A program made the position numbers and the translations under genes. The notes beneath the pieces were generated by a model. The model was not told the origin of the DNA and searched no databases. It saw only the letters and a list, made by a program, of their open reading frames with translations. From IMG/VR virus record IMGVR_UViG_3300006793_000133, positions 1 to 32,550 of that record: a DNA stretch of 32,550 nucleotides. One strand, given 5' to 3'. Below are positions 87-5,243 of this stretch, one piece after another (within the stretch, counting starts at the first letter, position 1; every line of letters starts with the position of its first letter). This DNA comes from a virus.

Positions 87-269
87 TCATGCGTAATGAC
101 GATACGCAAGTGCCTCATATGTGTCATTATCTCGTGCGTATTCGTCGTCTTGCTGTATGTCTTCATCTAGTGCATTATATGATTGCACCCACATGTCATA
201 TGTCTCGTCGAGATTATATGATTGATTGTCATAATTATGTGTGTAACCTAGATCGTAATCGTCGTACAT
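87..269 (-). CDS. possible small acidic Asp/Tyr-rich protein
   Basis: A 60-residue open frame with a strikingly acidic composition (about 12 Asp and 11 Tyr) starts MYDDYDLGY. No function is recognised. A promoter-like pair (TTGCAA, 17 bases, TATAAT) lies about 35-60 bases upstream on the same strand, which is the main support beyond the open frame. No good Shine-Dalgarno sequence precedes the ATG. The opposite strand has a similarly long open frame with an unlikely Cys/His/Arg-rich composition, so this strand is the better choice. It may still be chance. Confidence 0.35.
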   Translation of the reverse strand: MYDDYDLGYTHNYDNQSYNLDETYDMWVQSYNALDEDIQQDDEYARDNDTYEALAYRHYA

Positions 270-466
270 GAGCTCGTCGAGATTTGATTTGTTTACTTTA
301 TGATTATACTGTATTTTCGACGAGATTGCAACCTTCTTGTCGCACCTATGTCTCGTCGAGATGCATAGTAGTATATATGTATATAGTCGAGATTTATGTC
401 ATTATTGTAACATATATCTCGTCTAGAAATCTCGTAGTGCCTATAAGATCTTCTAATCTCGTGGGA
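130..466. repeat. array of short palindromes, consensus TCTCGNCGAGA
   Basis: Full or near-full copies lie at 203-213, 272-282 (GCTCGTCGAGA), 315-325 (TTTCGACGAGA), 351-361 and 417-427 (TCTCGTCTAGA). Half sites lie near 130, 388, 430 and 457. A 16-base exact repeat occurs at 199-214 and 347-362. Each full site is two 5-base arms around one central base, like a dimeric-protein operator. Between 277 and 422 the centres are about 31-43 bases apart. The array brackets a promoter-like element at 303-331. A DNA-binding role is inference. Confidence 0.55.
303..331 (-). promoter_or_regulatory. sigma70-like promoter inside the palindrome array
   Basis: Read on the minus strand: TTGCAA at 331-326, a 17-base spacer, then TATAAT at 308-303. 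It would drive the possible acidic gene starting at 269. A palindrome copy overlaps the spacer, and others lie just upstream and just before the ATG, so the promoter looks built for repression or activation. Confidence 0.4.
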
Positions 467-484
467 AATTTCGCGCCCCGTGGG

Positions 485-513
485 TTGACAAACTCCGCGT
501 CTCATGCTACGCT
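485..513 (+). promoter_or_regulatory. weak plus-strand promoter candidate upstream of the GIY-YIG gene
   Basis: A perfect TTGACA at 485-490 is followed after 17 bases by TACGCT at 508-513, a poor -10 box. It lies about 200 bases before the TTG start of the GIY-YIG gene. The stretch from 514 to 690 is AT-rich, and I see nothing else in it except a TATAAA at 664-669 with no matching -35. Confidence 0.2.
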
Positions 514-694: not shown

Positions 695-702
695 AAGGAG
701 GG
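695..702 (+). promoter_or_regulatory. strong Shine-Dalgarno fixing a TTG start
   Basis: AAGGAGGG lies five bases before TTG at 708. No ATG is in frame near the beginning of the GIY-YIG domain, so this ribosome site decides the start. Confidence 0.75.
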
Positions 703-707
703 ATATT

Positions 708-1436
708 TTGGGAATCATCTATCTAATCATCAACACAGAAACAGGACACAAATTCATCGGAAAGACCACACAAACACTCAATAAAGAATGGAAACACCAC
801 ATAGAGCGTTCAAAACGTATGTGTCCAGATTCATTACACTGTGCAATGAGAAGTTATGGTAATCATATCTTTAATATCAAACAAATAGATGAATGTAATG
901 AACATGAGTTAGAAGATAAAAGAATATATTGGATAGGTAGATATAACTCAGAATATAATAACAGTAACATTACTATTGAGAACAAACCTTCTTCATCCTT
1001 TGTAATTACGAAGAAACCAGAAGAAAAGAAACCTAAGTATCTCCCTACATTCACAAATGAAACCAGAGGTAATGGTAAGCATTCAGGTATACGTATTCAA
1101 GGGTTAAACATAGAAACAGGCATATCAAAAGAGTGGGAGAATGCAAGTGTAGCAGCAGAGGAACTTGCAGGTAATCCAAACCGTAATGCTAACATACTAT
1201 TATCAGCACGTAAGGGTTATGTTTCTTATGGTCATCGTTGGAAGTTATTAGAACATAAGACTAAAAAGAAAGCAGTCAAAGGTATCAATAAAGTGACCTG
1301 GGATGAGATCTTTTTTGAATCCCGTGCAGATGTTATTAGACAAATGGGTAAAGGTACACATGGTTCATCTCTTACCAAGGCACTTAAAAGTCATGGGCGT
1401 TATACATGGAGAGGTTATATGTGGTTTTATATCTAA
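708..1436 (+). CDS. GIY-YIG domain protein with NUMOD-like DNA-binding repeats (homing-endonuclease family)
   Basis: A 242-residue free-standing homing-endonuclease-type protein and the only confident plus-strand gene here. The GIY-YIG fold is at residues 1-80 (GIIY at 2-5, KFIGKT at 15-20, H31, YWI at 74-76). Two NUMOD-like modules follow, at about 120-180 and 185-242, each ending in a W-containing strand; such modules bind DNA. Compared with I-TevI (R27 and E75), the position before W28 is Glu (E27) and the one three before W75 is Arg (R72). Both catalytic residues therefore look replaced, with reversed charge. It starts at TTG with a strong ribosome site. It is convergent with the neighbouring minus-strand genes, only 16 bases from the next stop codon, as expected for an inserted mobile gene. 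It could be an inactive endonuclease or a DNA-binding regulator. Confidence 0.85.
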   Translation: MGIIYLIINTETGHKFIGKTTQTLNKEWKHHIERSKRMCPDSLHCAMRSYGNHIFNIKQIDECNEHELEDKRIYWIGRYNSEYNNSNITIENKPSSSFVITKKPEEKKPKYLPTFTNETRGNGKHSGIRIQGLNIETGISKEWENASVAAEELAGNPNRNANILLSARKGYVSYGHRWKLLEHKTKKKAVKGINKVTWDEIFFESRADVIRQMGKGTHGSSLTKALKSHGRYTWRGYMWFYI

Positions 1437-2649: not shown

Positions 2650-4044
2650 TTATGTAGTTACATTATTATTCGTTCCTCTTGCCATTTTAGTGGAACTAAG
2701 TTTAACTTGTGCTTTGGTATTTGAATATACTGCATGACCTTTACTTCCGGCAGATCCAGAACTTCGATTGAGAGATGCCTGACCATTTTGACCATGAAGA
2801 CCACCAATAGAACCGGCAGTACCATTGTTTCCACAATTAAAAGAATTTCCAGATACAACGCCATAACCAGAAACACTATTACAATTTGAACAAGTTCCTA
2901 CGTTTCCATTATTATGACCTCCGAAAACTCCTAAGTTATTAGCACCTTGTCCGGCACCACCATTTCCACCATTTCCTGCCGCAGATGCATTACCTTTGAA
3001 ATTATGTTGATAAAAACAGGTTTTATTAATCTGAGCAAAACAATTACTAGCTCCCCGACTTCGATTTCCACCGTGTTCACTTCTACAACGTGATCTATTA
3101 TCACTACCAGATGGTGAGGAATGATACCATGATCCACCTACACCAGCAATATTTTGACCTCCACAACCACCACTATTATTAGCATAACCTCCTAGTGCTC
3201 TTATATTAAGACCACTGCCACCAGAATATATGTTAACAGTTTTGGATGAATAAAACGTGCAATTTCTCCTATTTCCAGGATTACCATTTCTTCCCGAAAC
3301 ACCACCGCCACCGCCACCAAAAATGTGACCATTACCATTATTAATATTGATAATTGCACTTGTTTTAGACCTATTAGAACCTTGGGCAACATACATTGCA
3401 GTTCCTCCAGCCTTTCCATTAGGACTACTTTGTGTTCCACCAGTGCCACCAGTGGAAAATACACCTCTAGGACCATTATTAGAATTGTTTACACTATTTG
3501 GAAATGTTGCTCTATTTTGTCCTGAATCAATATCAATTTCAAGATTATATGCCGTTGCAGAAAATTTAAGTGCAGAACCAGTTGAATGAGCAAAATTACC
3601 TGTGCTTGAACCATTCGATTGAACATTAGTAAAACAACGACCAGAGATTCTTCCAGTCTTAGGAACATTACGTGCTAAATTTCCATTCCATGTTGATCCA
3701 GCACCACTACCAGAATGTAGTGAATACCTATCATTTGAACCAGTTTGTGTTACCAAATATGTTTTAAGCACACCATTATCATTCTCCCCACGAAAATCAC
3801 CAAAAGAATGATTACTTCCACTACTTTTAATGGTGCTGTTTTCAGTTGAATCAGGAACAAAATATCCTGTAGATTCTTTACCAAATTGAGAAGTGGATAT
3901 ATCTACATCCGTTTTTCTATAATATTTTGAAAATTTAATATTATTTGAATTACCACCAAAAAAATCTCTAACGGATTTTAAACTAATCGCACCATTACCA
4001 CCAAATTGTTTTGTTTGATTATTGGTATTTCCAGTCGTTGCCAT
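2650..4044 (-). CDS. glycine-rich tail fibre adhesin
   Basis: 464 residues, dominated by Gly, Asn and Ser. The N-terminus has the ISLKSVRDFFGG...IKFSKYYR pattern (residues 20-43) seen in many phage tail and adhesin proteins. About 195-435 is a series of Gly-rich turns with a run of six Gly at 243-248, as in the polyglycine sandwich of gp38-type T4-like adhesins. There are nine Cys, eight of them after residue 260. It should sit at a fibre tip and bind the host surface. A GATAAATA late promoter lies about 24 bases upstream. The name adhesin is inferred from composition and context. Confidence 0.75.
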   Translation of the reverse strand: MATTGNTNNQTKQFGGNGAISLKSVRDFFGGNSNNIKFSKYYRKTDVDISTSQFGKESTGYFVPDSTENSTIKSSGSNHSFGDFRGENDNGVLKTYLVTQTGSNDRYSLHSGSGAGSTWNGNLARNVPKTGRISGRCFTNVQSNGSSTGNFAHSTGSALKFSATAYNLEIDIDSGQNRATFPNSVNNSNNGPRGVFSTGGTGGTQSSPNGKAGGTAMYVAQGSNRSKTSAIININNGNGHIFGGGGGGVSGRNGNPGNRRNCTFYSSKTVNIYSGGSGLNIRALGGYANNSGGCGGQNIAGVGGSWYHSSPSGSDNRSRCRSEHGGNRSRGASNCFAQINKTCFYQHNFKGNASAAGNGGNGGAGQGANNLGVFGGHNNGNVGTCSNCNSVSGYGVVSGNSFNCGNNGTAGSIGGLHGQNGQASLNRSSGSAGSKGHAVYSNTKAQVKLSSTKMARGTNNNVTT

Positions 4045-4066: not shown

Positions 4067-4573
4067 CTATTTATCAAGTAATTTATACTTGATTGCAATA
4101 GTGAAACGATGTCTACTTCGGAAACATGTTGCTCGGTGTAATAGTGCAGCATCAAATACTATCATACGATTAGGTATAGGTGGATATCCCTTAATAATTT
4201 CACCATCATATATTTGTGTTTCACCACCTTCATCCACTTGCCACTCATGATTGGGATAATAAAGGAAGGTTAAATCACCCTCCTCTCCATCAGTATGAAA
4301 ATATGGATTTTCTAATGGGGCAAAACAATTTATATACATCCTATAAATTTCATATCTTGAAAACTCCTCTGCCATGGATTTTTTAATCCGCAGTTCAATT
4401 AAAGGATAAATTTCTTCTGTTTCAGTAATATTATGAATCAATCCAGTTGGTGGTGTTTCTACACTATCAGTTTCACCATATGAATATGCACAACTTAAAC
4501 AATATTCATATATGAATCTATGTTCACGATCGGTAAAGTAATTATCCGATATTTTAGCAATATTATTACTCAT
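4067..4573 (-). CDS. 2OG-Fe(II) oxygenase
   Basis: 168 residues from the ATG at 4573, chosen because it overlaps the stop of the preceding gene (ATGAGTAA). The core shows H93-T-D95, the second ligand H146 (LLHRA) and R156 in the strand RHRFTIAIKY, a complete Fe and 2-oxoglutarate triad plus arginine. EGGETQIY at 116-122 is typical of the prolyl hydroxylase-like family. The substrate is unknown. It lies immediately upstream of the adhesin gene, so modification of a virion or host protein is possible but unproven. Confidence 0.85.
   Translation of the reverse strand: MSNNIAKISDNYFTDREHRFIYEYCLSCAYSYGETDSVETPPTGLIHNITETEEIYPLIELRIKKSMAEEFSRYEIYRMYINCFAPLENPYFHTDGEEGDLTFLYYPNHEWQVDEGGETQIYDGEIIKGYPPIPNRMIVFDAALLHRATCFRSRHRFTIAIKYKLLDK
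4068..4075 (-). promoter_or_regulatory. T4-type late promoter (GATAAATA)
   Basis: GATAAATA on the minus strand, about 24 bases before the adhesin ATG at 4044 and overlapping the end of the upstream oxygenase gene. The same eight bases precede both giant tail genes, which supports a late promoter read with the phage sigma factor gp55. Confidence 0.7.
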
Positions 4574-5243
4574 TAGTGTCATCCACCGTATCTTCATCTC
4601 CATTATCTTCATCAATATCAATAACAGAAATGTTAAATGAAATTGTGATTCTTGGATAATCTGGTGTTGGAATACCAGGACTTACTTCATGTTCAAGATA
4701 TGCAGGTATCATAATAAAATCACCTTCTTTAACATTTAGACTAATCTGATCAGTATAATTTCTCTTATCAAAAAATTCCCAACTTGATATCCTAATATGT
4801 CTTGTTGGATCCAACAGTTTTAATGGGGAATGCCTATTATGATCATAATTTAAAAAGTGAATACAGGCAAAATGGTTTTGAGTTTTCCAGTTGCCAAAAT
4901 GACAGTGTGCTTCTTGATATTCACCATTATCATAAAAATTATACCACATGTCAGTAATTTGTATAGAAAATGATCTATCAAAAAAATCTGCAAAGATTGG
5001 ATTATATTGTTTTGATAATTCTTTTCCAATAGGAGTAGAATCATCTTTCAATGAATCATTAAAGTCATCATCACTAAATGATGTTATTAATTTATCTGTT
5101 AACCAACCCTTTGGAGCAGTATGTTTATTACCTTTTTTATGCTCTTCAATTAAAGGAATAATTAATTCTTTAATTTTATTATTATCTTGGACAGAACCAT
5201 GATATATGTTTATTGGAAATATATGTTTTAAATAATTACTCAT
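4566..5243 (-). CDS. 2OG-Fe(II) oxygenase-like protein (HxH type)
   Basis: 225 residues, with the layout of the TIGR02466-type phage oxygenase-like family. W100-Y-N is followed by G-E-Y-Q and the metal motif H113-C-H115, then an iron ligand H185 (LEHEV) and R198 (PRITISFNI). HxH replaces the usual HxD. The tail after 205 is very acidic. It overlaps both neighbours by short start/stop overlaps, so it belongs to the same transcript as the next oxygenase and the upstream small genes. Enzyme class is likely, substrate unknown. Confidence 0.8.
   Translation of the reverse strand: MSNYLKHIFPINIYHGSVQDNNKIKELIIPLIEEHKKGNKHTAPKGWLTDKLITSFSDDDFNDSLKDDSTPIGKELSKQYNPIFADFFDRSFSIQITDMWYNFYDNGEYQEAHCHFGNWKTQNHFACIHFLNYDHNRHSPLKLLDPTRHIRISSWEFFDKRNYTDQISLNVKEGDFIMIPAYLEHEVSPGIPTPDYPRITISFNISVIDIDEDNGDEDTVDDTNE

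Follow-up and report, generated by a model that had tools for sequence, protein, structure and literature searches.

A putatively nuclease-dead GIY-YIG homing endonuclease next to a conserved palindrome array in a cyanophage-related virus fragment

The usual expectation for a homing endonuclease is decay after its fixation. Is a homing endonuclease that carries the opposite charge at both of its catalytic positions still able to cut DNA, is it on its way to being lost, or has it been kept for another task? This question is raised by an open reading frame in the window, by which we mean the whole stretch of 32,550 nucleotides that was analysed (IMG/VR record IMGVR_UViG_3300006793_000133), a 32.5-kb virus fragment related to Synechococcus phage S-SKS1. 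The features under discussion are the following.

129 to 456: ATCTCGT half sites around the palindrome array
203..427 (no strand): array of CTCGWCKAGAT-type palindromes, with sites at 203, 272, 315, 351 and 417 and a partial one at 382
485..513 (+): sigma70-type promoter, TTGACA-N17-TACGCT, reading into the GIY gene
695..701 (+): Shine-Dalgarno sequence AAGGAGG, upstream of the TTG start
708..1436 (+): GIY-YIG / NUMOD-IENR1 protein, 242 aa, nuclease-dead candidate (homology, alignments, predicted structure)
708..968 (+): GIY-YIG domain, aa 1-87 (match to I-TevI 1ln0, alignments)
981..1082 (+): linker, aa 92-125, low confidence (pLDDT < 50)
1089..1253 (+): putative DNA-binding module 1, about aa 128-182, I-HmuI/NUMOD1-like (matches to 1u3e_M and the DNA-binding domain of I-TevI; relatives with NUMOD1 and I-HmuI_NUMOD-like matches)
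1269..1433 (+): putative DNA-binding module 2, about aa 188-242 (elements arranged as in module 1, strand-hairpin / two-helix / strand; repeat assigned by inspection)

Fold and catalytic positions of the window protein

The reading frame is real, with its TTG start, the ribosome-binding sequence at 695-701 and a product of 242 aa, and the identical protein is carried by three other metagenome contigs; a search of bacterial genome contigs found no relatives. The product is a full-length I-TevI-type GIY-YIG protein. It matched the I-TevI catalytic domain of PDB 1mk0, which is the E75A structure, with a phmmer E of 6e-4, and in an AlphaFold2 model built with 46 relatives the GIY domain reached a pLDDT of about 90-94 over residues 1-80 and aligned with I-TevI 1ln0 at Z 12.7 (1.9 Å over 85 residues). 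With Y5, H31 and N84 kept as well, this bears out the preliminary description, which had called the rest of the fold intact. A C-terminal modular DNA-binding domain is also predicted, since residues 113-184 of the model matched the DNA-binding region of I-HmuI (Z 8.2) and residues 122-182 the DNA-binding domain of I-TevI (Z 5.3). Pfam found GIY-YIG only, and below threshold, in the window protein itself, while in its relatives GIY-YIG, NUMOD1 and I-HmuI_NUMOD-like were all matched, so that the NUMOD-like modules first noticed by eye appear to be genuine repeats.

The active site of I-BmoI and I-TevI comprises Y6, Y17, R27, H31, E74 (I-BmoI) or E75, and N87 or N90, and in I-BmoI, where E74 holds the metal, R27A and E74A are catalytic mutants (PMC3161791). 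As assigned from two independent alignments and the structural match, these six positions read Y, F, E, H, R and N in the window protein. The replacements that had been read from the sequence are thus correct: R27 is E27 (GAA, 786-788), E75 is R72 (AGA, 921-923) and Y17 is F16 (TTC, 753-755), while H31, Y5 (equivalent to Y6) and N84 (equivalent to N90) are kept. An apparent loss of N90 was an alignment artefact, and realignment gave the invariant Y83-N84 as the equivalent. Since both catalytic charges are lost, the arginine as well as the metal-binding glutamate, the canonical hydrolysis mechanism would be unavailable to the window protein, and we infer from these residues that it does not cleave DNA.

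Other genes of the window were noted in passing. Three 2OG-Fe(II) oxygenase genes lie within 4 kb (1697-2317, 4067-4621 and 4566-5243, minus strand), with two DUF6171-like cysteine-rich small proteins between or beside them (1453-1713 and 2310-2630, the latter match below threshold), and 2650-4044 (minus strand) encodes a glycine/asparagine-rich protein of 464 aa with no Pfam match, possibly structural (tail or adhesin-like).

Loss of the catalytic arginine among relatives

We gathered 65 relatives by protein search, from isolate phages and around the palindrome array. R27 was kept in 22 of them and lost in 43, where it was replaced by E (32), I (5), V (3) or, in the rest, T, Q or A. All 22 proteins that keep R27 also have E at position 75, as compared with 8 of the 43 that lack it (Fisher p 5e-11), the remainder carrying T, L, K, V, R, M or Y there; from this distribution, R27 was lost first, with position 75 drifting afterwards. 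Change in the family is confined to the two catalytic charges only, as Y6 and N90 are present in 65/65 relatives and Y17 and H31 in 62/65 each. At the two catalytic positions, the isolate proteins of ACG-2014f and S-CAM7 read V/V and E/M. The isolate cyanophage genes at L014 2986-3696 and L015 2989-3687, labelled 'cox1-i7 protein', 'HNH endonuclease' or hypothetical, lack both catalytic residues, with this pair of readings (V/V and E/M); their endonuclease annotation is therefore doubtful, and a good number of the cyanophage genes labelled as endonucleases are likely to be misnamed.

The change at position 27 was repeated. A tree built with both catalytic columns masked requires R27 status to change a minimum of 7 times, and AU tests rejected a single E27 clade, and with it a single origin of E27, for the whole protein with these sites masked (p 2e-14), for the GIY domain alone (p 6e-4) and likewise for the C-terminal part alone. 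Because the two parts reject it separately, a swap of one domain does not account for this result. In the whole-protein tree, well-supported groupings join intact and dead proteins as sisters (catalytic pair in brackets), namely L146 (RE) with L114 (TE), L010 (RE) with L116 (QE), and L026-L035 (RE) with L037-L039 (EL); the L055/L180 and L200/L022 groupings are less certain or tree-dependent. Loss of R27 is thus recurrent, in several independent lineages.

Dead relatives nevertheless remain under constraint. Their frames are intact and dN/dS between them is about 0.06-0.25, with values of 0.19 for the window and L004 (Fisher p 5e-17), 0.16 for L074 and L053, 0.12 for L119 and L084, and 0.06 for L120 and L154. 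The GIY half tends to outpace the DNA-binding half in dead pairs, and the reverse holds for pairs with intact catalytic residues (median dN(GIY)/dN(C-term) 1.56 vs 0.53, Mann-Whitney p 0.024), a modest test in which the pairs were hand-picked from the tree and 4 of the 13 dead pairs run the opposite way. At 72 oriented array loci without the gene we found no decayed remnants of it, the sole match (L092) being a short piece close to where its contig begins. The dead genes are not in decay, and neither the relaxed selection nor the broken frames of a pseudogene were found.

These results bear on two readings, both of which are disfavoured by the data. One holds that the gene is passing through the ordinary degeneration of the Goddard-Burt homing cycle, as a useless endonuclease drifting to loss. 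Its patchy presence and absence would fit, as would the loss of a catalytic residue as the expected first step, but such drift sits poorly with the low dN/dS between dead relatives, with large dead clades that are about 50% diverged and still have intact reading frames, with the clean empty sites, and with an E27 that is nearly constant while position 75 varies; we regard it as unlikely. The other, already raised in the preliminary description, is that E27 and R72 have traded roles, or that other residues supply the arginine and the metal ligand, so that the protein still cuts or nicks. The remaining active site (Y6, H31, N90) is indeed conserved, and E27 occurs with R in L020 and with K in L021, L025 and L093. 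Against this, the 32 proteins with E27 have at position 75 T (13), L (9), E (3), R (2), K (2), V (2) or M (1), T and L are unable to bind metal like Glu, a basic partner does not occur more often with E27 (4/32) than with the other replacements of R27 (4/11, p 0.17), and no alternative conserved Arg or Glu was found among the relatives. Position 75 varies freely with E27 and no covarying pair emerged from the 65 relatives, so we rejected charge-swap covariation, and we rate a compensated nuclease the least probable of the readings considered. The description of the charges as swapped holds for the window sequence, but not for the family, in which T or L, and not a basic residue, usually occupies the second position.

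The palindrome array, the promoter and the insertion place

The palindrome array that had been noticed beside the gene is real, with 12 matches in the window as compared with 3.5 expected, a number reached by 0 of 100 shuffles. The same layout of array and promoter lies upstream of the gene in many relatives, and of the 41 loci for which a promoter was called, 40 have the GIY gene on the same side and strand as the promoter. Loci that have the gene and loci that lack it have right-hand neighbours in common, and these lie about 0.7-1.2 kb farther from the array when the gene is present; the gene is therefore an optional insert, a mobile element found downstream of the array at a roughly fixed site. 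Most array loci have no GIY gene, which makes it dispensable.

The array itself does not depend on the gene. At least 166 distinct arrays were collected, 72 loci without the gene have one of the same motif and similar copy number, and the motif does not differ between arrays beside a dead gene, arrays beside an intact one and arrays with neither. In S-SKS1 (208 kb), where no significant match to the window protein was found (best E 0.012), the palindromes and a cluster of half sites occur at one locus, and after them come a promoter and three TTATCCACA-type boxes. We therefore rejected the array as a feature existing for the window protein; its presence in phages without the gene makes it a phage element that is neither created by the protein nor maintained for it. 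The proposal that the array is the target of the protein is weakened accordingly: the protein may use it, and its operator could also lie elsewhere.

Taken by itself, the array belongs to a conserved cyanophage intergenic element (window 129-513; L017 8431-9063, i.e. about 150,835-151,464 of S-SKS1) in which the CTCGWCKAGAT array comes before a sigma70-type promoter and tandem repeats; some phages have TTWTCCACA boxes as well. We propose this region, which the present analysis brings to light, as a candidate replication origin or early promoter region; a search of the open-licence PMC literature found no paper on the array. Variants were seen in the upstream 700 bp of L018, where the sites are CTAG-centred (ATCTAGTCTAGAT), and of L037 and L039, which have ATCTCGT half sites only. 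Another setting was seen in L024, where 1-2523 holds a PhotoRC-II RNA and, downstream of it, a psbA gene that contains two group I introns (Rfam matches at 309-530 and 1271-1499), and where an E27/E75 GIY relative (1774-2523) lies behind the second psbA intron, preceded by repeats of TTTTCCACA, which we take to be the cyanobacterial DnaA-box consensus. No psbA exon follows this relative, so the contig may be chimeric.

Two further readings turn on this place. The protein could belong to a replication-origin complex, binding an origin marked by the array and modulating replication rather than transcription. The single occurrence of the array in S-SKS1, with its promoter and three boxes, is what such an origin might look like, and DnaA-type boxes are about 8-fold enriched below arrays; yet they occur in only 19 of 112 arrays and nowhere in the window, many phages with an array have no gene, and the GC skew of S-SKS1, in which almost all genes are on one strand, has no turning point. 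We consider this improbable, if a little less so than a compensated nuclease. Alternatively, the dead protein might act as a site shield, competing for the recognition site of its intact relatives and so guarding the phage or the integrated allele against the active version of co-infecting phages. Intact and dead versions do share their insertion place in closely related phages, and there is a precedent in Odn, a nuclease of the GIY-YIG superfamily that attacks iterons at a replication origin (PMC8263062), but an allele that bears the insert is normally already without an intact homing site, which makes shielding unnecessary there. This too seems unlikely to us, though slightly less so than degeneration.

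A putative DNA-binding regulator and its known counterparts

On balance we favour the reading that the window protein, a homing endonuclease that would no longer cut, has been retained as a DNA binder, most likely to regulate, or autoregulate, the array/promoter region. Its ancestor would have been a free-standing GIY-YIG homing endonuclease that inserted downstream of the cyanophage palindrome-array/promoter region; in this lineage the catalytic Arg would have become Glu, the metal-binding Glu being lost afterwards, while purifying selection kept the remaining fold and the two C-terminal DNA-binding modules. Transcription of the gene would start at the sigma70-type promoter that follows the array, and the protein would bind inside the intergenic region and tune that promoter, both the binding site and the effect being suggested by analogy with I-TevI, which binds its own operator and represses its own promoter (PMC2988022). 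An upstream promoter on the same strand, as an autorepressor of that kind would have, is present (485-513). The idea of a dead endonuclease retained as a DNA binder, put forward in the preliminary description, has thus gained family-wide recurrent loss, intact reading frames and a dN/dS well below 1, and its regulatory part stays conjectural.

More tentatively, cyanophages may have repeatedly and convergently converted this homing endonuclease into a non-cutting regulator of the array/promoter (possibly origin) region, the change of Arg27 to Glu being an off-switch favoured by selection and not random decay; we regard this as possible rather than probable. What is new would be that catalysis was lost repeatedly, and under selection, within one phage family, and not a charge swap, and we found no paper in open-licence PMC on a naturally dead GIY-YIG phage regulator. 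The family offers a natural series of the same gene at one genomic place, from catalytically intact through loss of one residue to loss of both, in which selection persists after catalysis should be gone, so that domestication of a selfish nuclease becomes directly testable.

Among known systems, I-TevI of the phage T4 td intron resembles the window protein in its GIY-YIG fold, linker and C-terminal DNA-binding modules, and in being encoded behind its own phage promoter and moonlighting as a DNA-binding autorepressor (PMC2988022). In contrast to I-TevI, the window protein has E and R for R27 and E75, is free-standing and not intronic, and has two IENR1/NUMOD-like repeats with no zinc finger identified. 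I-BmoI has the same six active-site positions (Y6, Y17, R27, H31, E74, N87; PMC3161791) and is active, whereas the natural state of the window protein is equivalent to its R27A and E74A mutants. The best PHROG match is phrog_3404 (E 1e-28). Full-length isolate homologues are the 'cox1-i7'/'HNH endonuclease' proteins of ACG-2014f and S-CAM7 (28-30% identity), which differ from the window protein at the catalytic positions as given above and in which no HNH motif was identified. Odn, the origin-directed nuclease of phage ICP1, is likewise of the GIY-YIG superfamily and tied to a repeat-bearing replication region (PMC8263062); it differs in keeping the catalytic Arg and Glu and cutting, and in a DNA-binding part that resembles a replication initiator rather than NUMOD/IENR1.
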